57,820 bases of DNA from a virus, in IMG/VR virus record IMGVR_UViG_3300023500_000004, positions 1 through 57,820 of that record; one strand, given 5' to 3'. The notes beneath the pieces were generated by a model. That model did not search any database. It had not been told where the DNA came from and worked only from the letters and a program-made list of their open reading frames with translations. The position numbers were made by a program, and so were the translations under genes. Positions 24,327 through 49,760 of this stretch are shown here, piece by piece; the first letter of the stretch is position 1; each line of letters opens with the position of its first letter.

Positions 24327-24680
24327 CTAGAAAACACCACTAGTGTTTTCAATACCAACTATGCTTGGATACTCATATATCCAAGCTATTGTTTCTTTAT
24401 TATCTTTAAGTTCTATAGGTAATTCCTTCCTGCAATAACAGGAAGGATGTCCTTCTAGACAATCTAAATGACGTAGCGTTTCAGCATCTACGTCATATAA
24501 TTCTACTAAAACTTTGTACTCAGATGTTTCATCTGCAATTAAGAAAGGTATTCCAGACTCATACAGTCTGTGTCCATCTATCCAACCCTCTGCCTTTCGT
24601 TTAATATGTTGTAATAAATCATGGTTACTTCTACCTTGTTTTAAAGTTCCATATACACCAACTGTTGTAATATTATTCAT
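24327..24680 (-). CDS. Gamma-glutamylcyclotransferase-like protein
   Basis: 117 aa. The substrate-binding loop VYGTLKQG (9-16) with Asn19, and DCLEGHPSCYCRKELP with the likely catalytic Glu76, identify the GGCT/AIG2-like fold. These enzymes release or cyclise gamma-glutamyl amines as 5-oxoproline. It is the most downstream member of the amide-ligation cluster (24.3-30.2 kb) and could trim or reverse the bonds the ligases make; that is inference. Overlaps the next gene by 8 bases. Confidence 0.85.
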   Translation of the reverse strand: MNNITTVGVYGTLKQGRSNHDLLQHIKRKAEGWIDGHRLYESGIPFLIADETSEYKVLVELYDVDAETLRHLDCLEGHPSCYCRKELPIELKDNKETIAWIYEYPSIVGIENTSGVF

Positions 24681-25080
24681 TGTCCATACTCTCTTTTAAT
24701 TGTTTAATATTATCTGCTAACTCTTGCGCTTGTTCTTCCAGTTTAGCAAGTTCTGTTTGTTGTTTTGTAGGGAATATTCTGTTTAGAATTCTAAACTTAT
24801 TCATTGTATTATAACCTTTGTGGGCATATTTAGTATAACCGCCACGCCCATCCCCACTGTATCTAAATATAGATAATGCTTCAAACACATTCATGGCCTC
24901 TTCTAAATCTTCGCGAGTGTAAGCATATTCAACACTATCGCAGTTGTTACAATAGGCGACTCTATTAGACTGTGATTTTGCATATACTTTATCTCCATCA
25001 ACTTTAGTTACAGTAACAGTAGCACCAAACCGACCATCTATTGTATATCTAACCTTATCACCAACTTTAAATTTATTCAT
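24673..25080 (-). CDS. SH3-like/coiled-coil protein of unknown function
   Basis: 135 aa. Residues 3-35 (FKVGDKVRYTIDGRFGATV) resemble a small beta-barrel (KOW/SH3-like). A Cys pair (YCNNCDS) follows, and residues 100-132 are a predicted coiled coil (AKLEEQAQELADNIKQLKE). It lies between GGCT and the ATP-grasp gene with one-base and 8-base overlaps, so it is translated with them. It may be a scaffold or a substrate of the ligases; no direct evidence. Confidence 0.55.
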   Translation of the reverse strand: MNKFKVGDKVRYTIDGRFGATVTVTKVDGDKVYAKSQSNRVAYCNNCDSVEYAYTREDLEEAMNVFEALSIFRYSGDGRGGYTKYAHKGYNTMNKFRILNRIFPTKQQTELAKLEEQAQELADNIKQLKESMDNE

Positions 25081-25841
25081 TATGAATTCTCCATATATTT
25101 TATAATTGCATTTGTATAACTATCTAATGTAATACCTTCAAGGCCAGGTGCTGTGTTAACTTCTAATACATACCACTTGTTATAGTGTTCATTGTATATT
25201 AAATCAACTGCACCAAAGGTTAAACCTAAAGCTATGATGGCCTGTTTACACATATCACTAACACTGTCTAATATGTTTACACCTTCCCGTACAAATACAA
25301 AGCCATTGCTATGATTACGTATCTGCCAGTTAACATCATCATCTGGTACAGATCTATCTCTAGCCTTTCGTTGTGCATCTATGATCTCACCATCAAACAC
25401 ATGCACTCTATACTCTTGTGTTTTCTTTACATACTTGGTGTATAAGGGTGCATCAACAACCTCCTCTTTAGTTGTAGCTAATACAATACCCACACCCCCT
25501 GAACCTCTTAATGTAGTGCGACATACAACTGTATGCCCTTTCTCAGCCCATTCCCACGCCTTCTCTATGTTAGTTGTAAAGGGGGGCAATGGTATGTCCT
25601 TCAAGGACATTAAACATAAAGCCCTGAGCTTATTACAAGCTAGGTGTGCATTCTTATTAATACCTCTATCTTTATTAGTTACACCCCAATTAATAACTAG
25701 ATCACTAGCCTGTTGTCTATATACACTGTTTTGCATATGTAACAATCTACTGTTAACACCTCTGTGCCTAAGCTCTTCACTCAAAGCTCTAGACCCTCTA
25801 CTAGCTGAACTCCTATCTATTCTAACTCTATTATAATACAT
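25080..25841 (-). CDS. ATP-grasp ligase (RimK-like)
   Basis: 253 aa from ATG 25841 (AAGGAG nine bases upstream); an upstream ATG at 25874 lies inside the preceding gene. ATP-grasp features: a CRTTLRGSGGVGIVLAT phosphate-binding loop, QEYRVHVFDGEIIDAQRKAR and the metal site VLEVNTAPGLEG (ExN). Such enzymes activate a carboxylate as acyl-phosphate and join it to an amine. The N-terminal part (NWGVTNKDRG) replaces the usual pre-ATP-grasp domain and is reduced. It sits between GATase II and GGCT, so it is the probable peptide-bond-forming member of the cluster. Confidence 0.88.
   Translation of the reverse strand: MYYNRVRIDRSSASRGSRALSEELRHRGVNSRLLHMQNSVYRQQASDLVINWGVTNKDRGINKNAHLACNKLRALCLMSLKDIPLPPFTTNIEKAWEWAEKGHTVVCRTTLRGSGGVGIVLATTKEEVVDAPLYTKYVKKTQEYRVHVFDGEIIDAQRKARDRSVPDDDVNWQIRNHSNGFVFVREGVNILDSVSDMCKQAIIALGLTFGAVDLIYNEHYNKWYVLEVNTAPGLEGITLDSYTNAIIKYMENS
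25234..25245 (-). repeat. Oriented 12-bp motif, copy 4
   Basis: Inside the ATP-grasp gene; encodes Gln-Ala-Ile-Ile. The only exact-core copy with C at position 9. Confidence 0.55.
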
Positions 25842-27000
25842 TACCTTCCACTCCTTTACATGATGTATATACATCTAAACATCTTTCGTGAAAATATTCA
25901 GAGCCATGCTGTTCACACACCTCTGATGCCTCTATAGGTTGTTTGCATATACCACAAGCTTCAAGGCCATCTCCGTATGTAACACACTCCAAGTCTATCA
26001 ACTCCAACCCCTTGCCACTTAAAGAGAAGTTGTTAATTGGTTGGCCTCTAGAAAAATAGTGGCTTGCTGATGTCACCTTACCTCTCACCATGCCACCAAT
26101 ATCTGCAGCGGCTCGCCACTTTTTTACAAGATCCTTGCTTATGCAAAACTTTATCTCATCTCCAGTATCTGAAGAAGCTTTACAATATCCTGTATCTTTA
26201 ACAGCATATATCCAACCACTCATATACTCTCCTATATAATTTTCTAAAGAGCTATTATTAGTAGGAGCCATACCACTCATGCTCCCACCAATAATCCTTA
26301 TATGTGGCTTTTTTACATCAAACTCCTCGTATAAACCTCCTTCAGATAAATTATCGGCTTTATAGTATAAATGTTTACCAACCTCTAACAGCTCTAAATC
26401 TTTAACTACAGCTTTATTATGTTCTGCTGCTAATGTAATCATATTCTTTTCACTAGCCCATACTAAGTCTGCTCCTACCCATCCCATCCATAAAGTACGC
26501 TCAGAGTTACGAGCAAAGTGTATAGTATTATCTTCACTATCATGCCACACTAAGGCATAAGCCCCCTCTAAACTCTCTAATACAGTGTTAGCATCCTTAG
26601 TTTGAGATAAGGCATAGCATATACTTTCACTGTCTGTATCAAACGCTATGTCACCATCATGCACTGTTGTTTTAGTTAAAGTTCCGTTGTGCATCATCGT
26701 GATTGTGCCGTGTTTAAAGGGATGAGCGTTGTCATCATCCTTAGCTCCCTTAGTAGCAAACCTGTTGTGCCCCATCAGCGCTGTGTTTGGAGCTAGTAAT
26801 ATATTTTTATATGCTTTTAATTGTATAAAATCACACGACATTAGAGCACGTTTATACACTGTACAGTCTCCTGAACGATTCACAACTGCAACACCTGTTG
26901 AGTGCGGGCCTCTTATCATATCAAAATATAACAAGTTGGTAAAAAAATCATCACCAGCTTGTGTCATACTAGAACTTGCAATACCCACCAATCCACACAT
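25831..27000 (-). CDS. Class II glutamine amidotransferase with C-terminal Zn finger
   Basis: 389 aa. N-terminal nucleophile Cys2 (MCGLVGI) with RGPHSTG (30-36), GHNRFATKG (77-85), HNG (104-106) and DTDSE (121-125): a complete Ntn-type glutaminase that frees ammonia from glutamine. There is no synthetase domain fused; instead residues 349-374 form a Cys/His cluster (C349, C352, C362, H365, H371, C374) like a treble-clef zinc finger. AGGAG nine bases before ATG. It would supply ammonia to the neighbouring ligases or make an amidated product. Confidence 0.92.
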   Translation of the reverse strand: MCGLVGIASSSMTQAGDDFFTNLLYFDMIRGPHSTGVAVVNRSGDCTVYKRALMSCDFIQLKAYKNILLAPNTALMGHNRFATKGAKDDDNAHPFKHGTITMMHNGTLTKTTVHDGDIAFDTDSESICYALSQTKDANTVLESLEGAYALVWHDSEDNTIHFARNSERTLWMGWVGADLVWASEKNMITLAAEHNKAVVKDLELLEVGKHLYYKADNLSEGGLYEEFDVKKPHIRIIGGSMSGMAPTNNSSLENYIGEYMSGWIYAVKDTGYCKASSDTGDEIKFCISKDLVKKWRAAADIGGMVRGKVTSASHYFSRGQPINNFSLSGKGLELIDLECVTYGDGLEACGICKQPIEASEVCEQHGSEYFHERCLDVYTSCKGVEGNVL

Positions 27001-27001
27001 A

Positions 27002-27871
27002 TTAAACTCTCCTATTTATTTCATTAATTAATTCTTCATTATCAAGAATACTTTTATTATCTATTGGTTCTGTAGTCAATAACATCTCGTCTATTAAACT
27101 CATATACAATACATTGTATTTAGCATTATCCCAGTACCTGCATAAATCGCTTTTATATACTATAGGTAGCTGTAACTTATCTTTAAATACAGCGTATATA
27201 CACTCTCTACTACTACCAGATTGTAATAACATAATCTCTTCAAGAGTGTGTGATGTAGCCCAGGCAATGATGGCTAGTAGTATGTCCACCCAATTTAATA
27301 TGTCATGGGCATTTAAAGAGCCGCAGTGTGTTCTAATTTCTATAGAACCAAACTCACATAAAGCAGCAAGATTAAGTCCAGTGTATTTACAGCTAGTGTT
27401 AACCAGACTGCCAACATCTTTAACACTAAAAGCTAAGGCAGCTTGCTTCACTTGTTCAGTTGCAAAGGTAAATCCTGGACAATATATATTACTAGCTCTA
27501 TGTTTACCACTAATGGTGTATAAAGCTGGTTCAAATAAAGCATACAGTTTATAAATTTTCTCAATGTCTAGTATAGTGTAGTTACGCATATCTATATGTA
27601 CATGCAACGATGTTCTGTGAGACAACACACATCTTGTTGTGGACAGGTACTTGGATAAGTTAACTACAGCCCTATCTAATGCCAGTCTACGCATTGGAGT
27701 GGATAAAACAAACTCCCTACCATCTCGCAAAGAGCCATCTCTAACAATATTCCAGCCTTTAAGATCTACTGCATTAATACAATCTCCTTCAACTTCCAAT
27801 TCCAATCCAACTAAAGGTACTTCACTAACCTTTGGTGGTTTTAGCCCAAATATTTCAGCTATTGTTTTCAT
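27002..27871 (-). CDS. Amidoligase (glutamine-synthetase-fold carboxylate-amine ligase)
   Basis: 289 aa. GLELEVEG (Glu24, Glu26), HVHIDMRN (His90, His92) and FGSIEIRTHCGSLNAHDI are the metal- and substrate-binding strands of the amidoligase_2 group, which forms amide bonds with ATP. It starts 17 bases inside the preceding gene, with GGAGAC before ATG. It is one of three amide-forming enzymes in this cluster. The acceptor and donor are unknown. Confidence 0.85.
   Translation of the reverse strand: MKTIAEIFGLKPPKVSEVPLVGLELEVEGDCINAVDLKGWNIVRDGSLRDGREFVLSTPMRRLALDRAVVNLSKYLSTTRCVLSHRTSLHVHIDMRNYTILDIEKIYKLYALFEPALYTISGKHRASNIYCPGFTFATEQVKQAALAFSVKDVGSLVNTSCKYTGLNLAALCEFGSIEIRTHCGSLNAHDILNWVDILLAIIAWATSHTLEEIMLLQSGSSRECIYAVFKDKLQLPIVYKSDLCRYWDNAKYNVLYMSLIDEMLLTTEPIDNKSILDNEELINEINRRV
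27267..27278 (-). repeat. Oriented 12-bp motif, copy 5
   Basis: Inside the amidoligase gene; encodes Leu-Ala-Ile-Ile. Confidence 0.6.
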
Positions 27872-28412
27872 ACACCCAGTCTCCTATTCTTGGAATAAAT
27901 TGTTTTGTGTGTAATTGTATTACACCATCTTTTATAACTTTACCTATAGGCAAGTTTCTGAAGAACAGATAACCTTTTGTTACACACATATCTCTAGTTA
28001 TATTTTTAGTTGAATAACCTTGTTTCTCTAAGAAAAACTTAGCCACCCTAGCTCCCCTTCTTACACCAATGTCAGCTATGGTCACTTCACCACCTTCTTT
28101 AAAACTGTAAGCCAGTAAGTTATGTGTTCTTAACCCCCGTTTCCATTGACGCTCTGCTTTACGTGCTATATACAGCACAGACCCATCTTCATCTTCAAAC
28201 ATACCTAAATCTGTTTGACACAAGGTTATATCATTAATGTGGGTTGATTGACTATCGCTCTCATCAAGGTGTTTATAAAACACATAAGGTTCATTATAAT
28301 CCTCATCGCAAAAAAAATCAGATAGATGGACACACCTATTATTTATTAAAGCATAAGTGCTAGCATAACTAGCGTTCATATCATCTATTGACATTTCATG
28401 CAGCACGTTCAT
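27855..28412 (-). CDS. Unknown protein of the amide-ligation cluster
   Basis: 185 aa from ATG 28412, chosen for AAGGAG seven bases upstream; the longer frame to 28487 lies inside the ligase gene. Mixed alpha/beta composition: an acidic N-terminal part (HLSDFFCDEDYNEPYVFYKH), then a basic region (ARKAERQWKRGLRTHNLL). No family recognised with certainty. Its overlaps on both sides (17 bases each) and position between two ligases suggest it works with them, as substrate, carrier or partner. Confidence 0.6.
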   Translation of the reverse strand: MNVLHEMSIDDMNASYASTYALINNRCVHLSDFFCDEDYNEPYVFYKHLDESDSQSTHINDITLCQTDLGMFEDEDGSVLYIARKAERQWKRGLRTHNLLAYSFKEGGEVTIADIGVRRGARVAKFFLEKQGYSTKNITRDMCVTKGYLFFRNLPIGKVIKDGVIQLHTKQFIPRIGDWVYENNS

Positions 28413-29211
28413 CACACATCTCCTTGTTAGACAGGACTTTAAGTATTTGTGGATATAATAGTGCAGCACTTTCAGCATCACACTCATTTATGATGGCTTG
28501 TATTTTCTTTTCATCAGCTATTAAACTAAAGACTGGAAGTAAAGAGGCGTGTCTCTCGACACACAGCTTAGTCATGTTGTAGACATATCTCTGCCTTGCT
28601 GTATTAGTCATCCAGAAATTACCAAGTGTACGGTATTCACCACCATATGGCTTAATGCGAATACAACCAGCCTTACCATACATTGTTCTTCTGAATACAT
28701 CTGTGTCATGCAACACGCTCCACACCCCTAATATGTAGTCCATACACATAGCTATGCGCTTCGTTGTTTCAACATGTGGTGACACATAACTATAATGTAT
28801 ATGTCCCGCTGCTGTCCTTAGACGCTGCTTCGGGTTAGGTTTAGGATTGTATGAGTCAGTGTATACATTGAAGTCGCGGCTACACCCCATAGCCATCTCT
28901 TTACCAGTGAAGCCAAGTAGTTTATCCTTTGTATATCTATGGCTACTCTTACACACCAGTTCATAATTGTTAACTCCAACCTGGTCAGACAATTGCATAT
29001 GAACACTAGCTAATTTACTAAGCCAATCAGATAATGTTATGCAAGGATCTATTGCCATCTCAGCACATACCCCATCTTCTTGTAAGTTTCCATCTTTCAC
29101 TAGCTTTGGGCATTCTTTGCTACCCTTTATAAGTTCATTAACACTCTCGATCTCACCGTCGCGTGAGACAAAGAACTCTACATCACTTCCAATCTGTTTA
29201 AATATTGACAT
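28396..29211 (-). CDS. phiEco32-like COOH-NH2 ligase, type 2
   Basis: 271 aa. The opening GSDVEFFVS (8-16) with conserved Asp and Glu, DGVCAEMAI, AAGHIHYSYV and IRIKPYGGEYRTLGNFW are the strands that identify the phage phiEco32-like COOH-NH2 ligase group, a glutamine-synthetase-fold family. Start at ATG 29211 after AGGAAGG. Its first 42 bases region (with ribosome-binding site) is duplicated at the start of the next gene upstream. Reaction partners are unknown. Confidence 0.88.
   Translation of the reverse strand: MSIFKQIGSDVEFFVSRDGEIESVNELIKGSKECPKLVKDGNLQEDGVCAEMAIDPCITLSDWLSKLASVHMQLSDQVGVNNYELVCKSSHRYTKDKLLGFTGKEMAMGCSRDFNVYTDSYNPKPNPKQRLRTAAGHIHYSYVSPHVETTKRIAMCMDYILGVWSVLHDTDVFRRTMYGKAGCIRIKPYGGEYRTLGNFWMTNTARQRYVYNMTKLCVERHASLLPVFSLIADEKKIQAIINECDAESAALLYPQILKVLSNKEMCDERAA
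28490..28501 (-). repeat. Oriented 12-bp motif, copy 6
   Basis: Near the 3' end of the type 2 ligase gene; encodes Gln-Ala-Ile-Ile. Confidence 0.6.
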
Positions 29212-29215
29212 CAAT
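29174..29215. repeat. 42-base direct repeat, copy A
   Basis: Covers the start codon and first 12 codons of the COOH-NH2 ligase gene. Identical to 29544-29585; similarity continues imperfectly upstream through the ribosome-binding site. Confidence 0.9.
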
Positions 29216-29581
29216 TCCTTCCTCTTTCATAACTTCTATCAATTGATTTATATTATCTGGCTTTAAAAGTTCTTTTAAGTTTACTTCATAATAATCTAGC
29301 CCATTTGCTATACTTCTTTGCGCTGGAGTTGGTGTGTAGCCCAATCGGCGGAACACTTCTCTAAATACCTGAGGCCTTTGAGTTAAAAGACTATAGCGGA
29401 TTCCTTGTGGAGAAGTCCGCGCTGCTTCTTCGGGTACCTCAACTACTTGAGTGGGTGCTACATTAACCTTTGTTGCCTGATTAAGAACGGGGGGGATATC
29501 TGCTTGTGTTTCCTGAAGAGATTCGGCGGCCTCAGGTGGGATTAACTCTACATCACTTCCAATCTGTTTAAATATTGACAT
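29198..29581 (-). CDS. Unknown protein with ligase-derived N-terminus
   Basis: 127 aa from ATG 29581. The first 12 residues (MSIFKQIGSDVE) are the same as those of the COOH-NH2 ligase directly downstream, owing to a 42-base duplication. After that come a Pro/Glu/Ala-rich stretch (IPPEAAESLQETQADIPP) and a helical C-terminal half (RPQVFREVFRRLGYTPTPAQ, then NINQLIEVMKEEG). Base composition of the middle is higher in GC than its neighbours. It may be a new gene made by 5'-end capture. Function unknown. Confidence 0.6.
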   Translation of the reverse strand: MSIFKQIGSDVELIPPEAAESLQETQADIPPVLNQATKVNVAPTQVVEVPEEAARTSPQGIRYSLLTQRPQVFREVFRRLGYTPTPAQRSIANGLDYYEVNLKELLKPDNINQLIEVMKEEGIDVNI

Positions 29582-29585
29582 CAAT
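29544..29585. repeat. 42-base direct repeat, copy B
   Basis: Second copy of 29174-29215, at the start of the 127-aa gene. Confidence 0.9.
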
Positions 29586-30201
29586 CCCATTCCTCTTCAT
29601 CTTCATAAACTTCTGGCCTCTCATCCTCATCCCAATCTTCCAACGTTTCATAGTACTCTTCTAAATCTTTTTCCTCAACCTTGGCTATGCGAACACTTCC
29701 AAAGGTAGTAGTAGGCATTGTTGGTGAAAGGGTTTCTTCTACATAAAAATCTTTATAATTATCTGGTAGATTAAAATCTGGCACAGAATTATAATTCTTA
29801 CTAACTTCATACACTGTTATTTTAAAATCCTCATAACCCTTCCAACTCTTCACTTCATTTATATGAACATTATTACTAGCGTTGCTTAACAGTTTATAAA
29901 ACCCCTTATATACACCCATTTCCATGTCATATTCAGCACACGTAGTTATGAGTTTCCATGTATATTTTTCTGGACTATGCAAAGCGGCTCTTTGTTTACA
30001 CAAGTAATGAAGCAAGCAATTGAACATAGCCTCTCTGGACTCATTAGAATTGGCGTTGCAGGAGATATTACCTAAGCTAACAGTAGAACAATCTGCTATT
30101 AGATTTACACAGTCTATACTCAGTCTAGGCCTATCCCCCCATGCATCTACAGCAGGACTGTACAAGGTTAGTCGTGTGCCATAATTATTGTAATCAAACA
30201 T
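29581..30201 (-). CDS. Unknown acidic-tailed protein
   Basis: 206 aa. Four Cys in residues 30-62 and a mixed alpha/beta body end in a strongly acidic tail (EEYYETLEDWDEDERPEVYE, then DEEEWD). Start ATG 30201 follows CGAGG. First gene of the chain of overlapping genes that contains the amide-forming enzymes. Acidic tails are possible acceptor or docking sites, but nothing shows this directly. Confidence 0.6.
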   Translation of the reverse strand: MFDYNNYGTRLTLYSPAVDAWGDRPRLSIDCVNLIADCSTVSLGNISCNANSNESREAMFNCLLHYLCKQRAALHSPEKYTWKLITTCAEYDMEMGVYKGFYKLLSNASNNVHINEVKSWKGYEDFKITVYEVSKNYNSVPDFNLPDNYKDFYVEETLSPTMPTTTFGSVRIAKVEEKDLEEYYETLEDWDEDERPEVYEDEEEWD

Positions 30202-32622: not shown

Positions 32623-33111
32623 ATGAAAAAGTATAAAGGTAATGGTAACAAATGGATTACTCAAGGATTATTCCTTGAAGTTAGCCAAACACCTGCATCT
32701 ATCTTATACACTCTGCAAACTTGGGATAAAGCTTACAAAGGTAAGCCAGTGTTAAGTTTGCATAAGCTATATGTAGAGATGGAAGATATAGCTGAGTTTG
32801 ACTTTGCTAACAAGTATTTTGGTAACTATGAGCATTGGCTTAGGATTAAATGTAAAGTATTCTTTAAACCTTATTACACAGCTATGGTTAAAGAGTTGAA
32901 TGCTAAGTTACGTAGTAGAAGTATGAAGACAATGTTACAGCAAGTTGCTGATGGCACTGCTACACAAGCTACATTGAAGTTCTTAGCTAATTATGAATAT
33001 GATGTTATTAAAGGTGCTGGTAGACCAAGCAAGCAGCATGTAGAGAATGAAGTTAAGAAGGAAGCAAAGCTTCATACAATCTATTCAAATGATCTAGAAC
33101 GGATTAAATGA
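32623..33111 (+). CDS. Small terminase subunit-like protein
   Basis: 162 aa from ATG 32623 (AAGG five bases upstream); the longer frame from TTG 32593 runs through the leader hairpins. The helical N-terminal part and the end (KFLANYEYDVIKGAGRPSKQ, then a charged helix) resemble DNA-recognition subunits of T7-like marine phage terminases. It overlaps the large subunit gene by 4 bases. It would select the phage DNA for packaging. Confidence 0.7.
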   Translation: MKKYKGNGNKWITQGLFLEVSQTPASILYTLQTWDKAYKGKPVLSLHKLYVEMEDIAEFDFANKYFGNYEHWLRIKCKVFFKPYYTAMVKELNAKLRSRSMKTMLQQVADGTATQATLKFLANYEYDVIKGAGRPSKQHVENEVKKEAKLHTIYSNDLERIK

Positions 33112-34640
33112 CTAACACTGTAGATGAGATAAGACAACTAGCGTTAGCTGATCTATATACATTTGCTAAGCTTGTACACCCTGAGAGGGAGTATGGTGAG
33201 TTGCATAAGGAAGTGTTTAGATGGCTTCAAGCAGTAAAGACACCAAACCAACTACTCTTATTGCCGCGTGCTCACATGAAGAGCCATTGTTTAGAAGTGT
33301 GGTGTTGTTGGTGGATTACTAAACATCCAGATACATCTATTATGTATGTGTCAGCAACTACAACACTAGCAGAAGCACAGCTATATGCAATTAAGAACAC
33401 TCTAACTTCTAAAGTATATAAAAGATATTGGCCTGAGATGGTTAATGCTGAAGAAGGTAAGAGAGAGAAGTGGACTACTGGAGCTATCTCTGTAGACCAC
33501 CCAAAGCGTCTAGAAGAGGGTGTTCGTGATTTCACCATCTATGCTGCAGGTTTAACTACAAACACCACAGGGCTACACTCAGACGTTATAGTGGCAGATG
33601 ATGTAGTTGTCCCAGACAACGCTTACACAGAAGATGGTAGAGCTAAGTGTTCTGCAGCTATGTCACAAATGGCTTCAATCTTAAACACTGGTGGTATGGT
33701 TAAGGCTTGTGGTACACGTTATCACACAGCAGATCAATACAGCATTTGGAAAGAACAGAGGATTGATGTATATGGTGATGACGGTGAAACAGTTGGTACA
33801 GAAGATTTGTGGGATCTTAAAGAAGAGGTTGTTGAAACTGATGGAGTATTTATCTGGCCGCGTACAGCCAGAGCTGATGGAAAACTCTTTGGTTTTAATA
33901 AGCAAGAGCTTAACCGCATTAGTGCCATGTATTCAGACCGTATCCAGTTCTATGCACAATATTACAATGACCCCAACGATCCAGAAAGCCAGAGATTCGA
34001 TATATCAAGATTTCAATACTATGACAAAAAGCATCTTAGCAATACCAACGGTAAATGGTATTTTAAAGGAGATAAGCTTAACGTGTATGCAGGTATTGAC
34101 TTCGCCTTCTCATTAAATAAGAAGGCAGATTATTCTGCAATAGTTGTAGTAGGTGTTAATAGTTCACATGAAATATTTGTATTAGATATAGATAGATTTA
34201 AAACAGATAAGATTATTGACTATTATAAGAAGATTGAAGAGATGCACATAAAGTGGTCTTTCAGACGTTTAAGAGCTGAAGTAACTGTAGCTCAAGTTGT
34301 TATAGTAAGAGATTTAAAAGATAGGTTTAGAAGTAATGGTAGCTTAATAAGTATTGATGAGCATAGACCTACTAGACAGCAAGGTAGTAAGGAAGAGAGG
34401 ATAGCAGCAGCACTTGAACCTAGATATGAAAATCAACAGATGTGGCATTACAAAGGTGGATATATACCAGTGTTAGAAGAAGAGTTGATCAGAGCACGAC
34501 CACCACATGATGATATTAAAGATTGTCTTGCATCTGTTGTTGAGACAGCTAAGGCTCCAAGAGATTACAACTCTTCTATACAAGAGAATGATAATGTGGT
34601 TTTATTCAATAATAGATTTGGAGGAGTGGCTTACCGATGA
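33108..34640 (+). CDS. Large terminase subunit (left phage)
   Basis: 510 aa. ATPase: a deviant Walker A LPRAHMKS (Lys58, Ser59) and Walker B VIVADDVV (Asp164, Asp165). Nuclease: AGIDFAFS (Asp331), Asp341, then the acidic HDDIKDCL near the C-terminus. It pumps DNA into the procapsid and cuts it. It is clearly different from the second large terminase at 44202-45485 in length, Walker A and order of motifs. It overlaps the portal gene by 4 bases. Confidence 0.9.
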   Translation: MTNTVDEIRQLALADLYTFAKLVHPEREYGELHKEVFRWLQAVKTPNQLLLLPRAHMKSHCLEVWCCWWITKHPDTSIMYVSATTTLAEAQLYAIKNTLTSKVYKRYWPEMVNAEEGKREKWTTGAISVDHPKRLEEGVRDFTIYAAGLTTNTTGLHSDVIVADDVVVPDNAYTEDGRAKCSAAMSQMASILNTGGMVKACGTRYHTADQYSIWKEQRIDVYGDDGETVGTEDLWDLKEEVVETDGVFIWPRTARADGKLFGFNKQELNRISAMYSDRIQFYAQYYNDPNDPESQRFDISRFQYYDKKHLSNTNGKWYFKGDKLNVYAGIDFAFSLNKKADYSAIVVVGVNSSHEIFVLDIDRFKTDKIIDYYKKIEEMHIKWSFRRLRAEVTVAQVVIVRDLKDRFRSNGSLISIDEHRPTRQQGSKEERIAAALEPRYENQQMWHYKGGYIPVLEEELIRARPPHDDIKDCLASVVETAKAPRDYNSSIQENDNVVLFNNRFGGVAYR

Positions 34641-36418
34641 CAGTGACAGATAGTGTATTAGAAGCCACAAGAATATTAGATAGGAAAGGCTTGGCTGACT
34701 TTATATCTGAAGAGTGGGATAAGCTCAGAGGGCAGAGATCTGGTAGAGATGCTGCATGGGCAGAAGCTAGAAACTATATATTTGCTACAGATACACGCAC
34801 CACAACAAACCAAAAACTACCTTGGAAGAACTCTACAACAATACCAAAGCTTTGTCAGATTAGAGATAATTTACATTCTAATTACATAGCAGCTGAATTC
34901 CCTAATGATAACTTCTTCAAGTGGGAAGCTTATACACAAGATGCTAATGACATCTCTAAGAAAGAAGCTGTACAAGCTTACATGAGTAATAAGCTTAGAG
35001 AGAGTGGATTTAGATCTACAGTGTCACAGCTATTAGTAGACTATATAGATTATGGAATAGCTATAGCTGATGTAGTTTGGATTAATGAAAGTAAAGAAGA
35101 CAAAGAAACTGGAGAAAAGATTCCAGGATATGTAGGCCCAAAGGCTGTACGAGTGTCACCATTAGATTGTGTATTTGATGCTACAGCTGTAGACTTTAGC
35201 CATAGCTATAAGATAACTAGAAGCATTAAACGCTTTGGTGAGTTTGAATTAGAGATGCTTCAGAATCCCACAGAGTGGATAGAGAATAGCTTACAGCTTA
35301 TTAAAGATACACGTAGTGTATTGACAGGGTTGACAGCAGAAGATTTTAGAAAGGCTGAAGCCTATTCAATAGATGGCTTTGGTTCTTTGTTTGAATACTA
35401 TGGTTCTGGTTATGTAGAGTTGTTAGAATTTGAGGGCACTTTACACGACCCTGTAACTGGTGAGCTGTTAGATGACTACATCATAACTATCGTAGATAGA
35501 AAGCATGTGGTTAGAAAAGAACCCATCCCAGCATGGAAGCGCGGTGGGTTTAAAGAGATGGCTGGGTGGCGTAAGCGTCCAGATAACCTATATGCAATGT
35601 CACCACTAGAGAATCTAGTTGGTATGCAATATCGCTTAGATCATCTACAGAACTTAGCAGCAGACATTAAAGATCTTACAGCAGCTCCACCATTAGTATT
35701 TAAAGGTGAACTACAAGAAGCTGTTAAGTGGGGGCCTTTTGCAGAGTTCCATATGGAACACGATGGTGATGTACGACCGCTGTTCACTGGTGCAGATCTA
35801 AATAGAGTTGAGAGTGAAATGGCAGCTCTTCTAAACTTAATGGAAGAACTAGCTGGTGCTCCTAAGCAAGCCGCTGGTATACGCACTCCGGGGGAGAAGA
35901 CAGCCTTTGAAGTGCAGAGTTTAGATAACGCTGCAGGTAGAATATTCCAAGAGAAAGTTACACAGTTTGAAGTAGAGATTGTAGAACCCATATTAAATAA
36001 TATGCTAGAGACTGCTGTTAGAAATATGCAAGGTAGTGACATTATTCGAGTAATGGATGATGACTTAGGTGTTACACAGTTTATAGAGATAACCAAAGAA
36101 GACATTACAGCTAAGGGTAAAATACGACCCATAGGATCTAGACACTTTGCAGCACAAGCACAGCTTGTACAAAACTTAACAGGTTTAGCTAACTCTCCTA
36201 TATGGGCTAAGATACAGAATCATATATCAGATAAGAAACTAGCTAAACTATTTGAAGACATGCTACAACTTGATAGGTTTGATTTAGTTAGTGACAATGC
36301 TGGTATTATGGATCAGATTGAAAGTCAAAGACTTGTAAACCAAGGCCAAGAAGATTTAGCAACAGAACAAGCCACACCCATAGATGGAGGGCAACCAGAT
36401 GCATCCACGCTGGGCTAA
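34637..36418 (+). CDS. Portal protein (left phage)
   Basis: 593 aa. The stretch WKNSTTIPKLCQIRDNLHSN near residue 62, SPLDCVFD and the PLENLVGMQYRLDHLQN helix, followed by APKQAAGIRTPGEKTAFEV, are typical of podovirus portal (head-tail connector) proteins. It forms the dodecameric DNA gate between capsid and tail. It stands directly after the terminase and before the scaffold. Confidence 0.85.
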   Translation: MTVTDSVLEATRILDRKGLADFISEEWDKLRGQRSGRDAAWAEARNYIFATDTRTTTNQKLPWKNSTTIPKLCQIRDNLHSNYIAAEFPNDNFFKWEAYTQDANDISKKEAVQAYMSNKLRESGFRSTVSQLLVDYIDYGIAIADVVWINESKEDKETGEKIPGYVGPKAVRVSPLDCVFDATAVDFSHSYKITRSIKRFGEFELEMLQNPTEWIENSLQLIKDTRSVLTGLTAEDFRKAEAYSIDGFGSLFEYYGSGYVELLEFEGTLHDPVTGELLDDYIITIVDRKHVVRKEPIPAWKRGGFKEMAGWRKRPDNLYAMSPLENLVGMQYRLDHLQNLAADIKDLTAAPPLVFKGELQEAVKWGPFAEFHMEHDGDVRPLFTGADLNRVESEMAALLNLMEELAGAPKQAAGIRTPGEKTAFEVQSLDNAAGRIFQEKVTQFEVEIVEPILNNMLETAVRNMQGSDIIRVMDDDLGVTQFIEITKEDITAKGKIRPIGSRHFAAQAQLVQNLTGLANSPIWAKIQNHISDKKLAKLFEDMLQLDRFDLVSDNAGIMDQIESQRLVNQGQEDLATEQATPIDGGQPDASTLG

Positions 36419-36638
36419 AGGTAAAACAGAACAAGAAGCTAACGATATACTAGACAGCTACACTCACTCTGTTATAATTAGAGAGAGGCTTGAAGAGATT
36501 CTATCTTACAGGATAGACCAAAGTTTACGACAAATGAAAGATGCCGTAAAAGGTAATATTCAGAATCTATCTGAGTATTATGCAGAGGAACTTGCTCGAC
36601 AACAAGCTTTTGAAGAAGTAATTAAATTAATTAAATGA
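36399..36638 (+). CDS. Small helical protein between portal and scaffold
   Basis: 79 aa from ATG 36399 (GGAGGG eight bases upstream, inside the portal gene). Charged and helical (QEANDILDSYTHSVIIRERL, then IQNLSEYYAEELARQQAFEE). By position an assembly factor; no family recognised. Confidence 0.6.
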   Translation: MHPRWAKGKTEQEANDILDSYTHSVIIRERLEEILSYRIDQSLRQMKDAVKGNIQNLSEYYAEELARQQAFEEVIKLIK

Positions 36639-36658
36639 ATGACTAAGAGAATATAAAT

Positions 36659-37384
36659 ATGAGTGATAACCTCACTACATCAGAACAAATAATCGAGCCA
36701 GTGGCACCAGCCACAACTCCTGCTGTAGCACCAGCAGAACAAACAGTGCAGCCCACTGATCCTAATTCTTTGTTTGCTGACCAGCTACAAGCTATTAAAT
36801 CAGACGATGGACGACAAAAGTATGCTGATGTTCCAACAGCCTTAGCATCTGTTTCACATGCTCAAACTCACATAGCGGAGCAAGCTCAAAAGATTAAAGA
36901 GCTTGAAGAGACAGTGGCACAGCAGCAAGGTATGGAAGAAGTATTAGCACAACTAAAGTCACAGCAAACCCAAGCAGAATTACCCTCTACTACAGGTATT
37001 GATGAGACTACATTAGCTTCTCTACTCGATCAACGATTAGACCAGCGTGATAACGAAGCTAGGCAAAACGCTAATGCTTCCACCGTGTTAACAAAACTTA
37101 AAACTGTCTTTGGAGATAAAGCAGAACAACAGTTCACTAGTAAAGCTAATGAACTTGGTATTAGTGTACCCTATCTAAGTGATATGGCTAGACAAGCACC
37201 ACAAGCTGTCTTAGCATATTTCAATGAAACTGCTACACCACATACAGCTAATCCAACTACAACAACTGTTAATACAAACGTCTTACAAACTAAACAGCCC
37301 AATCCAGATATGTCCCATATGGATGTATTTACAGGAGGAACAAGTTCTTCTGTAACTAGTTGGAGAGAGGCAGCCAAAACTTAG
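36659..37384 (+). CDS. Scaffolding protein (left phage)
   Basis: 241 aa. Pro/Ala/Thr-rich start, a coiled-coil helix (AEQAQKIKELEETVAQQQGM), Gln-rich middle, and a helical C-terminal third. Scaffold proteins preceding the capsid gene look like this, and are removed from the procapsid on packaging. It sits directly before the capsid gene. Confidence 0.75.
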   Translation: MSDNLTTSEQIIEPVAPATTPAVAPAEQTVQPTDPNSLFADQLQAIKSDDGRQKYADVPTALASVSHAQTHIAEQAQKIKELEETVAQQQGMEEVLAQLKSQQTQAELPSTTGIDETTLASLLDQRLDQRDNEARQNANASTVLTKLKTVFGDKAEQQFTSKANELGISVPYLSDMARQAPQAVLAYFNETATPHTANPTTTTVNTNVLQTKQPNPDMSHMDVFTGGTSSSVTSWREAAKT

Positions 37385-37396
37385 AGGAAATAACTC

Positions 37397-38401
37397 ATGG
37401 CTCAAATTGCAGGTACACCTGGCTCAGGCCGCACCGATGGGAATTCAGATGCGTTTATTGAAGCGCAACAATATGATTCTCATATTCTAACCAACTTACA
37501 CGATGGTTTGTTACCAACTAACTTCTATCGTAATGTAGCAAGCTTTGGTTCTGGTACCACTCTTAATATTAAAACGATTGGTACAGTGACTCTACAAGAT
37601 ATTACAGAGAATGAGGATTTAACTTACAATCCTATTGACTCTGGTGTTGTTCAACTAAAGATCTCTGATTATGTAGGTGGAGCATGGTATATAACTGACG
37701 TAATACGTCAAGATGGTTCTCAAGTAGAAGCATTACATGCAGCACAAGCTACAGAGAACTCTCGCGCATTACAAGAAGTGTTTGAAACACGCTATCTAAA
37801 AACATTGAATGATGCACAAACACAAGGTGCTACAAATGATATTAATGGCTTTGCTCACCGTCTAGTTGCCTCTGGCACTAATATGACTTTATCTGAAGCA
37901 GACTTGATTGATATGTCTCTAGCTTTTGATAAAGCTAATGTACCTATGGGTGGACGCATTGCCATTGTTGATCCTGTGTCAGCAGCAGCCTTTAGTAAGC
38001 GAGCACAACTTACCACTGGTGCCGGTAATATGGATGCAGCATCTACATTAACACAAACTCTTGTTAAGGATGGCTTTGCTAAAGAGCATAAGTTTATCAC
38101 ATCTTTATATGGTTGGGATATTTGGACTTCAAATCGCCTACCAACATTAGCGGCTGGTGTTAGTATTGATGGATCAACCAATGCTCCAACAGAAGGTGGT
38201 AGCGTAAATATCTTTATGTGTATTCTAGATGATAACACTACACCAGGAATGGTAGCATGGAGACAGCCACCTAAAACAGAAACCGGTCGAGATCGTTCTA
38301 AGAAACGTGATGAGTTTGACCAAACAGCTCGTTGGGGACAAGGTGTACAGCGTTTAGATACGCTTGGTACTATCATTACCTCAGCAACAGCTACAGCGTA
38401 G
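37397..38401 (+). CDS. Major capsid protein (left phage)
   Basis: 334 aa. Codons are more regular and GC-richer than the neighbours, as in highly expressed genes. Landmarks: FIEAQQYDSHILTNLHDGLL, YNPIDSGVVQLKISDYVGG and a middle FDKANVPMGGRIAIVDPVSA, typical of podovirus capsid subunits in which the mid-segment is the axial domain. AGAGGAA stands upstream of ATG. Position between scaffold and small head genes supports the call. Unrelated in visible sequence to the P22-like coat at 48476. Confidence 0.85.
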   Translation: MAQIAGTPGSGRTDGNSDAFIEAQQYDSHILTNLHDGLLPTNFYRNVASFGSGTTLNIKTIGTVTLQDITENEDLTYNPIDSGVVQLKISDYVGGAWYITDVIRQDGSQVEALHAAQATENSRALQEVFETRYLKTLNDAQTQGATNDINGFAHRLVASGTNMTLSEADLIDMSLAFDKANVPMGGRIAIVDPVSAAAFSKRAQLTTGAGNMDAASTLTQTLVKDGFAKEHKFITSLYGWDIWTSNRLPTLAAGVSIDGSTNAPTEGGSVNIFMCILDDNTTPGMVAWRQPPKTETGRDRSKKRDEFDQTARWGQGVQRLDTLGTIITSATATA

Positions 38402-42148: not shown

Positions 42149-43170
42149 TGTCTAAGTATATTGTCGGTGGCAAAATATATGAGGACAGCAGTTCCAGTGC
42201 TGTAATTGTTGGCAGTAGAGTATTAATACAGACCGGCGGTGTCACCGCTGTATCAGCAACCCTAACCGGCACAGCAACAGCAAGCATTACAGAAACAGAC
42301 ATAGTAACGGGCGGTAAGACTGTAGTTCTTACCCTGACAGGAGACACATTCGTAACAGGTACAACTAGCGAAGATGCTATAGCAGGGGGTTCAGACTCAG
42401 ATAAAACCGGCGCTAATAAATGGGATGCACTGATAAAGACAGCGCTAGATAATACTAACGTAGTACTATCAGCAGGTAATACCGTTGCAACAATTACACT
42501 ACCAGCATTCGCAACATATGACACAGCAGAGCAAGAAGTAATAACTTGGACAATACCAGCCGCTTCGCTTACAACTAGCACAAGTGATATAGTAGCAATA
42601 CCAACTTTTACGGTTGATGTATCTGGGTTTTCATTAGTAGCTAATAGCGGGTCGTATACCTACACAGGCACATCAAATCAGCTTGAACGCGGATTAGTTA
42701 TTCTCGCGAACGTCGGCTCTTATTCTTATACCGGCACTAATAATGCCTTGTTGTTAGGCCGTGTTTTAGTTGGGCAAAGTGGGGCTTATTCATATACCGG
42801 TGACAATTCAGCTTTAGATCGAGGTTTAATATTAACAGCGGCTAGCGGTACATATACCTATAGCGGCACGACCATTAACTTTGCTCAGGGTTTTGGTTTA
42901 GTTGCTGATTCTGGTATATTTAACTTAAATGGTACGAATGCCAACTTTATAACAGATAGGATACTAACAGTATCTAGTGGTATATATTCTTATAACGGGG
43001 TCGATGTTTCGCTTGTTTTTAGTGGCACGCCTTCGCCCGTACCAGATGCTAGAGGAATATCAGTTAATTCATTATTTGGCGATGGTGTTGTGTTTAGTGC
43101 TAAGTTTGGAAGCGGTAAATCAATTAATTCATCTTTCGGGGGTGGATTTAATAGCGATGGTGATATATGA
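42148..43170 (+). CDS. Repeat-containing fibre-like protein (340 aa)
   Basis: Residues 1-150 form a beta-rich domain. From about residue 162 to 305 there are six tandem units of ~24 residues with the pattern SGxYxYTGxxxxLxRGxxLxA; the last two are more diverged. The C-terminus is Gly/Ser-rich (ARGISVNSLFGDGVVFSAKF). Repeats of this kind form extended fibres or surface spikes. Translation is coupled to the neighbours by TAATG and ATGA overlaps. Confidence 0.6.
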   Translation: MSKYIVGGKIYEDSSSSAVIVGSRVLIQTGGVTAVSATLTGTATASITETDIVTGGKTVVLTLTGDTFVTGTTSEDAIAGGSDSDKTGANKWDALIKTALDNTNVVLSAGNTVATITLPAFATYDTAEQEVITWTIPAASLTTSTSDIVAIPTFTVDVSGFSLVANSGSYTYTGTSNQLERGLVILANVGSYSYTGTNNALLLGRVLVGQSGAYSYTGDNSALDRGLILTAASGTYTYSGTTINFAQGFGLVADSGIFNLNGTNANFITDRILTVSSGIYSYNGVDVSLVFSGTPSPVPDARGISVNSLFGDGVVFSAKFGSGKSINSSFGGGFNSDGDI

Positions 43171-43907: not shown

Positions 43908-44230
43908 TGATAGAAAAACGTAAAAAAGGCGGTCAACCAGGGAATAATAATTCCGGCAAAAACAATATGGCGCGGCAAGCTTTACAGATGGCAATTGCCA
44001 GTAAGGGCGCTAAGAAAGACGTAGTTAGCAAAATGAAAGTGCTATATGAGATTTGGCGCGTTCAGGTTGAGAAAGCTATGGACGGAGATCAAGCCGCTAC
44101 CGATGCAATCATGAACAGATTAGATGGAAAACCTTTTCAATCCATACAATTAACTGGCGATGAAGATAATCCTATCGCAATAAGCAAAGTAGAGCGAGTC
44201 ATTGTCAGTCCTACAAATACCGACCGCTGA
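43907..44230 (+). CDS. Small terminase subunit-like protein (right phage, P22 gene 3 position)
   Basis: 107 aa from ATG 43907 (TAATG with the previous stop). The start IEKRKKGGQPGNNNSGKNN is typical of short phage DNA-binding and packaging proteins; a helical middle follows (KMKVLYEIWRVQVEKAMDGD). Shorter than P22 gp3 (162 aa) and not clearly homologous, but it lies directly before the large subunit with a 29-base overlap. Confidence 0.65.
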   Translation: MIEKRKKGGQPGNNNSGKNNMARQALQMAIASKGAKKDVVSKMKVLYEIWRVQVEKAMDGDQAATDAIMNRLDGKPFQSIQLTGDEDNPIAISKVERVIVSPTNTDR

Positions 44231-45485
44231 GGTTTTTGAGCCGTTATTACACCCTAGTCGATACAAGGGCGCATGGGGTGGGCGCGGTAGCGGTAAATCA
44301 AACTTTTTCGCTGAAAAGCTTATTGATGATTCGTTGTATGAAAAGGGACTTCGTTCCGTTTGCATTCGTGAAGTTCAAAAAACTCTAAAACAATCATCCA
44401 AAAAACTTATTGAAGATAAACTCATTGACTTAAGATTAGGCGAGGCTGATGGCTTTAAGGTGTTTAAGGAGGTCATAGAAACACCAAATGATGGGATGAT
44501 AATCTTTCAAGGGATGCAAGACCATACAGCCGAGTCAATAAAATCATTAGAAGGTTTTGGTCGCGCATGGGTTGAAGAGGCACAAACATTATCTGCGACA
44601 TCGTTAAGATTATTAAGGCCGACAATAAGAAGTGAAGGGTCAGAACTGTGGTTTAGCTGGAACCCGCGAAGAAAGACTGATCCTGTAGACGTATTGTTGA
44701 GGCAAGGCCAACCACCCACAAATTCAACTATTGTTAAAGCCAATTGGTCAGACAATCCTTGGTTTCCTTCTGTGCTAGAACAGGAGCGCATTGATTGCTT
44801 AAACAATAATCCTGATGAGTACGATCACGTTTGGGATGGTGGTTATGCAACGGTAACGGAAGGCGCTTATTTTGCTAAACATTTAGCCAAGGCCAAACAA
44901 GAGGGCAGAATAGGGCGTGTCGCACCTGATCCATTGATGACTATTAGGTTATTTGCAGATATCGGTGGGACGGGCGCAAAGGCCGATGCTTTTACGTTAT
45001 GGGCCGCTCAGTTTATCGGTAAAGAAATTCGAGTTATAAATTACTATGAAGTACAGGGTCAATCACTCGAAGCTCATTTAGCATGGATGCGTGAAAATGA
45101 TTATTCGCCTAGTAAAGCTCAAATATGGCTTCCTCACGATGGGAAAACCAATGACCGTGTTTATGATGTATCATATGAGAGCGCATTTAAGAGTGCGGGT
45201 TATAATGTTACGGTTATCCCAAACCAAGGTAAAGGCGCGGCCAAAGCTAGGGTTGAGGAAGTTAGGCGGTTATTCCCTAATATGTGGTTTGATGCTGAAA
45301 AGTGTGCCGGTGGCATAGATGCGTTAGGCTGGTATCATGAGAAGAAAGATGAAGTGAGAAATATTGGTTTAGGGCCGGAACATGACTGGGCTTCGCATGG
45401 TGCGGACGCTTTTGGCCTAATGGCTGTGTCGAACTCGCTACAAGAACCTATAAGCGAAACAATAACTTTTGAATCGGAGTGGTGA
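44202..45485 (+). CDS. Large terminase subunit (right phage)
   Basis: 427 aa, starting with TTG. Walker A GGRGSGKS (26-33), Walker B AWVEEAQ (Glu125, Glu126), nuclease Asp253 (LFADIGG) and a final GADAFG. This is the terminase_3 type, with a short spacing from Walker A to B, unlike the 510-aa enzyme at 33108. P22 gp2 is 499 aa, so this one is smaller. It overlaps the gene before and the portal gene after. Confidence 0.92.
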   Translation: MSVLQIPTAEVFEPLLHPSRYKGAWGGRGSGKSNFFAEKLIDDSLYEKGLRSVCIREVQKTLKQSSKKLIEDKLIDLRLGEADGFKVFKEVIETPNDGMIIFQGMQDHTAESIKSLEGFGRAWVEEAQTLSATSLRLLRPTIRSEGSELWFSWNPRRKTDPVDVLLRQGQPPTNSTIVKANWSDNPWFPSVLEQERIDCLNNNPDEYDHVWDGGYATVTEGAYFAKHLAKAKQEGRIGRVAPDPLMTIRLFADIGGTGAKADAFTLWAAQFIGKEIRVINYYEVQGQSLEAHLAWMRENDYSPSKAQIWLPHDGKTNDRVYDVSYESAFKSAGYNVTVIPNQGKGAAKARVEEVRRLFPNMWFDAEKCAGGIDALGWYHEKKDEVRNIGLGPEHDWASHGADAFGLMAVSNSLQEPISETITFESEW

Positions 45486-47635
45486 TGGCTACTAATGAAG
45501 AAATACATAAAAGGGCGCTAGAGCGATTTCAGCTAGTAGAAGGCAAAGAGCGCAATCAAAGGCGTTTAGCGGTTGAAGATATTAAGTTCGCTCAAACTGA
45601 GGATGGCCAGTGGGACGAGGGGGCTATCACTAAAAGAGCGGGGCGGCCACGTTATACTATTAATAGAGTTGCAGGTGCTATTGACCAGTTAATTGGCGAC
45701 CAGCGGCAAAATCGTACAGATATTAAGATACGCCCTGTTTCTGGCGGATCGACTGAGGATGTTGCTAAGACTATGACCGGCCTTATTCGCAATATTGAAA
45801 GCCAAAGTAAGGCCAGCAATGCTTATGATAATGCTTTTGATGAAACGACTAACGGAGGTTACGGTGGTTGGCGTGTTATCACAGAGTTTAATGATGACGA
45901 TGTTTTCGAGCAAGACGCTAAGATTAAGCCAATACTTGGAGCAACAACTTCTTTATGGTTTGATCCAAGTGCCAAAGAATATGATAAACGTGATGCTAAC
46001 TGGGCTTTTTTAACTATTGATATGAGTGTTGAAGAGCATAAAGATAGGTTCCCTGATTCAGCGGTAAGCGATTTCAGTCAAGAGCAATTCAATCAAAATT
46101 TATGCAGAGACTGGTTTACACAAAGCACAGTGAAAGTGGCTGAATATTGGGTTAAAACGCCCGTTAATAAAAACATAGGGTTGTTATCTGACGGACGTGT
46201 CATTGATCTTGACGAAGAAAAAGAAGTACTAGACGAATTAGAAGCGCAAGGGATTACAGTCGTTAAGCAGCGCACAGCTAAAAGCCACATTGTAGAAATG
46301 TATTTAATAGATGGCTCAGGAATTTTAGTTGATGCTAAAAGATGGGCGGGTAAATTTATCCCACTTATTCCTGTGTTTGGGCGTCAATCATTTATAGAAG
46401 GGCGCGAATATACAAGGGGAATTGTTAGATTTGCTAAAGATGCAAACAGAATTTATAACTATACGACCAGCGCAGCAATTGAAACAGCGGCTTTAACGCC
46501 TAAAGATCCTTACTGGTATACGCCAGCAATGATAAAAGGGCATGAGTCAAAGTATAGAAACTTTAATACCTCTAATAGTCCATTTATGCCGTATAACCCT
46601 GACCCACAAGTCGGCGGCCCACCTCAAAGAAGTGGAGCGCCCGCTGTTCAAGGTGCATTTATACAGCAGATACAACAAGCCAGCATGGATTTGTATCATG
46701 TCACTGGTATGCAGCCACCAAGTTTAGGCGCTAATCCTGAATTAAAGAGCGGTAAAGCAATCCAAGCTCAAGAGCGTTTGGGTGATCGAGGCTCTTATAT
46801 ATTCAGTGATAACCTATCAAAATCTATTGAATATACAGCGGAAATATTAGTAGATTTGTTGCCCAAGATTTACGACACAAGACGACAAATTAGAATCATG
46901 TCCCAAGATGGCGAAACTGAGCAAGTATTTATTAATGATGAAGTGATCGACAATCAAACAGGTGATAAAGTTTTGGTTAATGATTTATCGTTAGGTAAGT
47001 ATGACGTAGTAGCAGAAACCGGCCCAGCGTTTGCAACACAGCGCCAAGAGTCGGCACAACAGATTATAGAGTTGATTGGAACATCACCAACATTTGAAAA
47101 TCTAGCAATGGATCTAGTCGCCAAAGACTTACCTATTCTTGAGTCTAAAGAGCTAACCAAGCGTGTTAGAAAGATCATGATTAAGCAGGGCGTAGTTGAG
47201 CCAACCGAAGAAGAGGTTAAAGATTTAGGTTTAGATCAGCCGCAACAGCCGGACCCACAGCAGTCGGCTATCACAGAAAATATTCAAATACAGACCGAGA
47301 AGTTAATAAGTGATATTGAAAATCAGGATGCTAAGACGCTTAAAACAACGATTGATACGCAGAATTCAACAATTAAAGCTTATCAAGATTTGATGAATGC
47401 TTATAAGATACAGGCAGAAACGGGAATCCCTTTCACAGAGGATGACCACCATATCAGGGTTAAGCAGCAAGATATTATAGAAGAGGCGCAGCAACAAATT
47501 GAAGAAGGCCCAAACAAAGAACAGCTAGAAAGCATTGTCCAAGACCAGGGCGAAAGCGGAGAGATTGAAGGAAAGCGAAGATTAACTGTTGAGCAGCCAA
47601 GTGCTAGCGTTGGCCAAGATAGTTTAAATCAATGA
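45485..47635 (+). CDS. P22-like portal protein
   Basis: 716 aa from ATG 45485 (GGAG five bases upstream), close to P22 gp1 (725 aa). Early region KFAQTEDGQWDEGAITKRAG, RPRYTINRVAGAIDQLIGDQ and RQNRTDIKIRP are characteristic of P22-type portals. The C-terminal ~130 residues are Gln/Glu-rich coiled coil, corresponding to the P22 barrel. It forms the DNA gate of the capsid. Confidence 0.92.
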   Translation: MATNEEIHKRALERFQLVEGKERNQRRLAVEDIKFAQTEDGQWDEGAITKRAGRPRYTINRVAGAIDQLIGDQRQNRTDIKIRPVSGGSTEDVAKTMTGLIRNIESQSKASNAYDNAFDETTNGGYGGWRVITEFNDDDVFEQDAKIKPILGATTSLWFDPSAKEYDKRDANWAFLTIDMSVEEHKDRFPDSAVSDFSQEQFNQNLCRDWFTQSTVKVAEYWVKTPVNKNIGLLSDGRVIDLDEEKEVLDELEAQGITVVKQRTAKSHIVEMYLIDGSGILVDAKRWAGKFIPLIPVFGRQSFIEGREYTRGIVRFAKDANRIYNYTTSAAIETAALTPKDPYWYTPAMIKGHESKYRNFNTSNSPFMPYNPDPQVGGPPQRSGAPAVQGAFIQQIQQASMDLYHVTGMQPPSLGANPELKSGKAIQAQERLGDRGSYIFSDNLSKSIEYTAEILVDLLPKIYDTRRQIRIMSQDGETEQVFINDEVIDNQTGDKVLVNDLSLGKYDVVAETGPAFATQRQESAQQIIELIGTSPTFENLAMDLVAKDLPILESKELTKRVRKIMIKQGVVEPTEEEVKDLGLDQPQQPDPQQSAITENIQIQTEKLISDIENQDAKTLKTTIDTQNSTIKAYQDLMNAYKIQAETGIPFTEDDHHIRVKQQDIIEEAQQQIEEGPNKEQLESIVQDQGESGEIEGKRRLTVEQPSASVGQDSLNQ

Positions 47636-47708
47636 AAATATGATATACAATAGTAAAAACGCATACGTCAAGCGATATTGACGGCTAAAATCAACCGAAA
47701 GGTGTGTT

Positions 47709-48449: not shown

Positions 48450-48475
48450 CGCGAAGGTCTCAGGAGAATTAGCAA

Positions 48476-49699: not shown

Positions 49700-49712
49700 A
49701 TTTTCCCCTTTT

Positions 49713-49738
49713 AGCGCCCTTAATTGGGCGCTTTTTTT
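49713..49738 (+). terminator. Rho-independent terminator after coat gene
   Basis: Seven-pair stem AGCGCCC/GGGCGCT with a six-base loop, followed by seven T. Confidence 0.9.
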
Positions 49739-49760
49739 ACCCTCCCTCATGGTGTGACCA

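Follow-up and report, generated by a model that had tools for sequence, protein, structure and literature searches.

The closest described system to the locus studied here is the so-called 'peptidoglycan modification cassette', a set of seven genes that encode, among others, a pair of amidoligases, an ATP-grasp protein, a gamma-glutamyl cyclotransferase (GGCT) and a glutamine amidotransferase (GATase). It was reported in RIO-1, PSA-HP1, phiEco32, 7-11 (Salmonella), PA11, tf, MR299-2, LUZ24, PaP3 and CW02 (PMC5498523). The same cassette order is found in UFV-P2 (PMC3890496). A preliminary description of our locus had stated that clusters of this kind were predicted by earlier comparative work, which is correct. 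It had also called the product unknown, in agreement with the published cassette descriptions, and we found neither a product nor a substrate reported in the publications consulted. In experimentally evolved Bruynoghevirus, missense changes were observed in the amidoligase and GATase genes of both lineages (PMC11450229), and these recurrent changes suggest that the two proteins act together.

The window analysed here is the whole stretch of 57,820 nucleotides of the IMG/VR virus record IMGVR_UViG_3300023500_000004. The list of its open reading frames contains nine closely packed leftward ORFs between positions 30201 and 24327, confirming the nine overlapping or adjoining genes noticed before. 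We designated them, in order of transcription, I, H, G, F, E, D, C, B and A; all features of this array given below are on the minus strand. If translation begins at the likely ATG codons, neighbouring genes share 1-17 nt or are separated by 1 nt, and most of them have a Shine-Dalgarno-like sequence before the ATG. The array adjoins primase and helicase genes, and a terminator-like hairpin detected by a consensus scan at the end of gene A (24330-24350) may mark its end. A promoter scan gave fewer matches than shuffled sequences did, and PADLOC matched no known defence gene. The enzyme set, the G-F-E order and the neighbouring replication genes are those of the RIO-1/phiEco32-type cassette, for which the order in PaP3 and UFV-P2 is G-F-E-D-C-A, whereas genes H, B and I are private to this virus and the sequences of G and F are divergent. 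Judged by sequence, the region belongs to the phage amidoligase ('peptidoglycan modification') cassettes already described, as a new and somewhat divergent representative, and the enzyme set itself is not new.

The record also carries two head and packaging modules. The first (33108-38401) has a Zobellviridae-type TerL, a portal-like protein with the PHROG label head-tail adaptor and a capsid protein, and the second (44202-55176) has a P22-like TerL, portal, scaffold, coat and head-closure proteins and an ejection set. An independent contig (IMGVR_UViG_3300009408_000050) is identical to the record up to 40292 and then diverges, and a near-complete relative (G003) has no match to the record beyond 39734. 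This record probably joins two different phages into a chimera, with the junction between about 40.3 and 44.2 kb. A block of 365 bp at 42254-42618 is 91% identical to a block past the point of divergence in IMGVR_UViG_3300009408_000050, and the sequence surrounding it is unrelated.

Five of the nine genes could be assigned to enzyme families. Gene A (24327-24680) encodes a gamma-glutamyl cyclotransferase of the GGACT/AIG2-like type with 117 aa (PF06094, E 5.8e-23, 82.2 bits against a Pfam cut-off of 22.8; phrog_2520, E 1.2e-21), which keeps the YG-L motif, P45 and the catalytic-type Glu76 in LEGxP, the last being present in 100% of 47 aligned rows. Gene C (25080-25841 from its likely ATG, the ORF beginning at 25874) encodes an ATP-grasp ligase of the RimK / alpha-L-glutamate ligase type (PF08443, 25.4 bits against 21; phrog_2599, E 7.8e-74), and its profile matches cyanophycin synthetase and RimK chains in the PDB. 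C departs from the family in none of the 36 columns with at least 85% conservation, and the expected K, ExR and ExN residues are in place (K71, E143, R145, K159, D213, E227 and N229). Membership of C in the R2K ATP-grasp clade was rejected, as both R2K_2 (21.7 against 26.2) and R2K_3 (18.2 against 26.3) fell below their cut-offs. Gene D (25831-27000) encodes a class-II glutamine amidotransferase (GATase_6, PF13522, E 9.8e-16, 58.4 bits against 27; phrog_4736, E 3.2e-68), of the GlmS/PurF type by PDB comparison, in which the amidotransferase domain spans residues 1 to about 214 and is followed by a variable C-terminal part with CxxC pairs. It retains every column conserved at 85% or more, and keeps the nucleophile Cys2 (after Met1), the glutamine-binding R80, HNG104-106 (N105-G106) and D123. 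Gene E (27002-27871) encodes an Amidoligase_2 protein of 289 aa (PF12224, E 1.3e-9, 38.7 bits against 22; phrog_7469, E 8e-49) with ExE (E24/E26), HxH (H90/H92), R125, Y163, E178 and R180 in place; one of 30 columns conserved at 80% or more is changed (F179I), and a glutamine-synthetase-like fold is predicted from the Pfam assignment.

The fifth enzyme, G (28396-29211 from its likely ATG, the ORF beginning at a TTG at 29214), is a COOH-NH2 ligase of the phiEco32 type (PF14395, E 1.4e-9, 38.0 bits against 25; phrog_3815, E 7e-67). A glutamine-synthetase-like fold is predicted for G by its AlphaFold model (pLDDT 94.7), whose best PDB matches are YbdK, a plant glutamate-cysteine ligase and glutamine synthetases (E 6e-7 to 1e-3), with TM-scores of about 0.5 that indicate a match at the fold level only. 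These three kinds of enzyme act on glutamate. The model of G, which matches them, gave no indication of a missing active site. G shares 59% identity with its nearest relative and about 24-40% with other members of the family, and it agrees with the family in 43 of the 50 columns that are at least 85% conserved. Because seven highly conserved positions are changed (P9V, F50M, N51A, F61W, A103E, G139S and S195G), including N51A and S195G, its specificity may differ. Across the five families, for which 47-91 aligned rows each were used in the active-site comparison, all matches lie above the Pfam cut-offs and the PHROG matches are strong, far beyond chance, and the active-site residues are conserved in A, C, D and E. 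The five earlier assignments are supported. The roles that had been proposed, with the glutaminase supplying ammonia, the ligases building amide bonds and the cyclotransferase trimming gamma-glutamyl ends, are plausible.

A tblastn search found the COOH-NH2 ligase in at least 317 phage records, and a non-exhaustive pattern scan across species genomes of bacteria and archaea, 84,980 in number, gave only 11 matches, all in contigs of metagenome-assembled genomes (MAGs) and several with the whole cassette. These 11 contigs are most simply phage contigs binned with the MAGs. Since the scan is not exhaustive, and since integration of PaP3 and a related P. tolaasii prophage have been reported (PMC11780129), we describe G as rare outside viruses. 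In the E. coli phage Bas89 (L006 / L189, record positions 58636-59947) the ligase is annotated as two pieces around an HNH endonuclease gene, which is probably an intron with a homing endonuclease.

Four proteins of the array had been described as lacking a characterised family, and this was borne out, as F matches an uncharacterised PHROG weakly (phrog_11055, E 1.2e-7) and B, H and I have no significant family. Gene F (27855-28412 from its likely ATG, the ORF beginning at 28487) lies between the two amidoligases and is the only constant uncharacterised partner in the cassette. Its model is confident (pLDDT 90.5), and no PDB entry resembles it at an E-value of 0.001 or better; a tudor/eIF5A-like barrel was considered and rejected, since the TM-scores, under 0.3, are noise. 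Ten significant matches to F in BFVD are all phage proteins, including proteins of the cassette phages CW02 and Bjorn, the best being the CW02 ortholog, and partial matches to DUF1653 were not significant. Among solved structures, none matching E, F or G by sequence was found.

From IMG/VR we took 80 loci of G and 80 loci of C and retained 43 that are non-redundant at 85% G identity and have at least 6 kb on both sides. Every one of the 43 loci has G, D, E and C; A is present in 26, a C26 peptidase (PF07722) in 29, and A or C26, both predicted to cleave gamma-glutamyl bonds, in 42. Because G and C served to collect the loci, the presence of these two is partly the result of selection, which does not apply to D, E, F, A and C26. 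Gene F is found in 35 of the loci and is absent from 8, including all five with the crAss-like order. The reciprocal search from C26 gave the same association, with G or D in reach at 80 of 80 loci (the best 80 of 365) and with G, D, E, C and F at each of the 35 long-flank loci among them. The gene order is conserved beside primase, helicase and polymerase genes, and the isolates PaP3, CW02, PA11, Slicky01, cr108_1, Bas89 and Rhizobium N3_13 carry the cassette in agreement with these data. The set of neighbours noted in the window is thus clearly conserved in related phages.

The Zobellviridae and crAss-like versions have the same four core enzymes as this virus and carry the C26 hydrolase, of the class-I GATase fold, alone or beside the GGCT, whereas this virus and its nearest relative have the GGCT only. 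Fisher's test for mutual replacement of A and C26 gave p 0.003 over the 43 loci, a value that ignores relatedness, and the replacement was not significant on the tree, where only 2-6 independent pairs are available. As the pattern mostly follows lineage and the independent pairs are too few, we limit the claim to the co-occurrence of A or C26 with the core enzymes. A reduced cassette was seen in MEP402 (Zobellviridae; L009, 1610-4128), with a 550-aa amidoligase fusion and a GATase and without G, C, A and C26. In L052, L077 and L088 a second, truncated class-II amidotransferase directly follows the amidoligase (order D-E-D).

The remaining genes of the array are not part of this conserved set. 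The lengths given before for H (127 aa from the ATG at 29581) and I (206 aa) are correct. Gene H (29198-29581), without a Pfam or PHROG family, is absent from both closest relatives (L011 and L012), in which I directly abuts G, and its first 12 residues are copied from G. The start of H (29544-29585) is an exact 42-bp direct repeat of the start of G (29174-29215), so H is best read as a lineage-specific insertion flanked by a direct repeat; it looks like the birth of a gene by insertion with a duplicated start. No source was found for H among the other genes of the window. It is also present in IMGVR_UViG_3300009408_000050, which is 99.99% identical over 12.6 kb, so it is not a one-off assembly error, although this contig may share its source with the window. 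Gene I (29581-30201), which encodes an acidic-tailed protein, was found only in L011 and L012, with 33% identity to one of them. Gene B (24673-25080), of 135 aa, has no family above cut-off (weak PF24203, 19.1 bits against 27) and is absent from G003, the nearest near-complete relative.

The preliminary description had proposed H and I as candidate acceptors of the ligated groups. This proposal was not supported, because H is missing in the closest relatives and I was found only in L011 and L012, yet the enzymes are present in 43 of 43 loci. H, I and B all fail conservation, and no conserved acceptor gene linked to the enzymes was found. Pup-like tagging was likewise rejected, since it requires a conserved small acceptor encoded with the ligase and none of the three is conserved with the enzymes.

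Glutamine synthetase, glutamate-cysteine ligase, YbdK and PuuA all work by activating glutamate at its gamma-carboxyl, and gamma-glutamyl bonds are broken by GGCT as well as by C26 enzymes, PuuD being an example. Taken together with the RimK-type ligase and the glutaminase of the cassette, such enzymes are most simply read as a pathway in which a gamma-glutamyl amide is made and afterwards trimmed. Two host pathways of gamma-glutamyl protection show this logic: in butirosin synthesis (BtrJ/BtrG) and in the PuuA/PuuD pair the gamma-glutamyl group is attached by a ligase and taken off again by an enzyme of the GGCT or C26 type. Both are metabolic pathways with known substrates, and the likeness to the phage cassette is at the family level only. 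We therefore propose, with a probability of about 0.55, that the cassette carries out gamma-glutamyl ligation and trimming on a small host molecule, for example a cell-wall precursor or an amine. Early in infection, G and E would activate glutamate-type carboxylates with ATP and would join them to an amine, which could be an amino acid or the ammonia that D sets free; C would add an amino acid, and A would remove gamma-glutamyl groups as 5-oxoproline in the manner of BtrG or PuuD. Because no acceptor gene travels with the enzymes, we infer that a small host molecule or cell-wall precursor is a likelier substrate than a phage protein. Against the gamma-glutamyl reading, glutamine-synthetase-like and ATP-grasp folds also make other bonds.

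A more specific version of the gamma-glutamyl reading, in which the cassette alters peptidoglycan or its precursors in their peptide side chains and thereby protects the infected cell from superinfection, was published for RIO-1-like phages and phiEco32 (PMC5498523) and repeated elsewhere (PMC10580990). Peptidoglycan has gamma-linked glutamate and is common to hosts as different as E. coli, Pseudomonas, Rhizobium and the Bacteroidetes of crAss-like phage; however, the publications that state the hypothesis cite no experiment, and the lysis and entry enzymes of the cassette phages must still work on the altered wall. We regard this version as possible, with rather low confidence.

RimK adds glutamate to ribosomal protein S6. 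That C is nearest to RimK-type ligases would agree with protein tagging, glutamate or another amine being attached by the ligases to a protein of the host or the virion, and the part of the work of Iyer and co-workers that is discussed in PMC4431377 tied such ligase pairs to peptide tagging. The locus survey speaks against it, since no conserved acceptor accompanies the enzymes, and 8 of the 43 loci, those with the crAss-like order among them, lack F, the one additional protein that is otherwise constant. The obligate gamma-glutamyl cleaving enzyme also fits a small-molecule step better, and we consider protein tagging unlikely.

The position among replication genes, together with the name host material recycling genes used for the cassette in PMC5498523, could indicate nitrogen or amino-acid recycling, with the cassette mainly transferring amide nitrogen and degrading glutathione and similar gamma-glutamyl compounds in order to supply phage replication. 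This is improbable, since a glutaminase and a GGCT alone would suffice for such recycling and three ATP-consuming ligases are hard to explain. A hypermodified DNA base, which the location in the replication module and the amide-linked bases generally known from some phages might bring to mind, is very improbable, as nanopore data showed no modification motif in Rembedalsseter (PMC11780129), a Vicosavirus genus-mate of UFV-P2, the latter being the one in which the cassette is described, and the DNA of the cassette-bearing phage tf is cut by RsaI, HpaI, EcoRV, SmaI and HaeIII (PMC3517423).

What is new here is the set of co-occurrence counts over the 43 loci, the near-constant enzyme predicted to cleave gamma-glutamyl bonds, the rarity of G in the 84,980 cellular species genomes and the modelled fold of G. 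Returning to gamma-glutamyl ligation and trimming, a bolder form of it, which we offer with considerable doubt, is that the cassette may be a nearly virus-only, self-contained gamma-glutamyl pathway, in which the four ligase and amidotransferase genes are always paired with a cleaving enzyme of either of two unrelated folds, and that lytic phages of many hosts may make the same small molecule or altered precursor by protect-and-release. No fewer than 317 phages with sequenced genomes, among them BASEL phages of E. coli and therapeutic phages of Pseudomonas, carry the COOH-NH2 ligase that marks the cassette, and the range of products to be looked for is narrowed by the obligate gamma-glutamyl cleaving enzyme.
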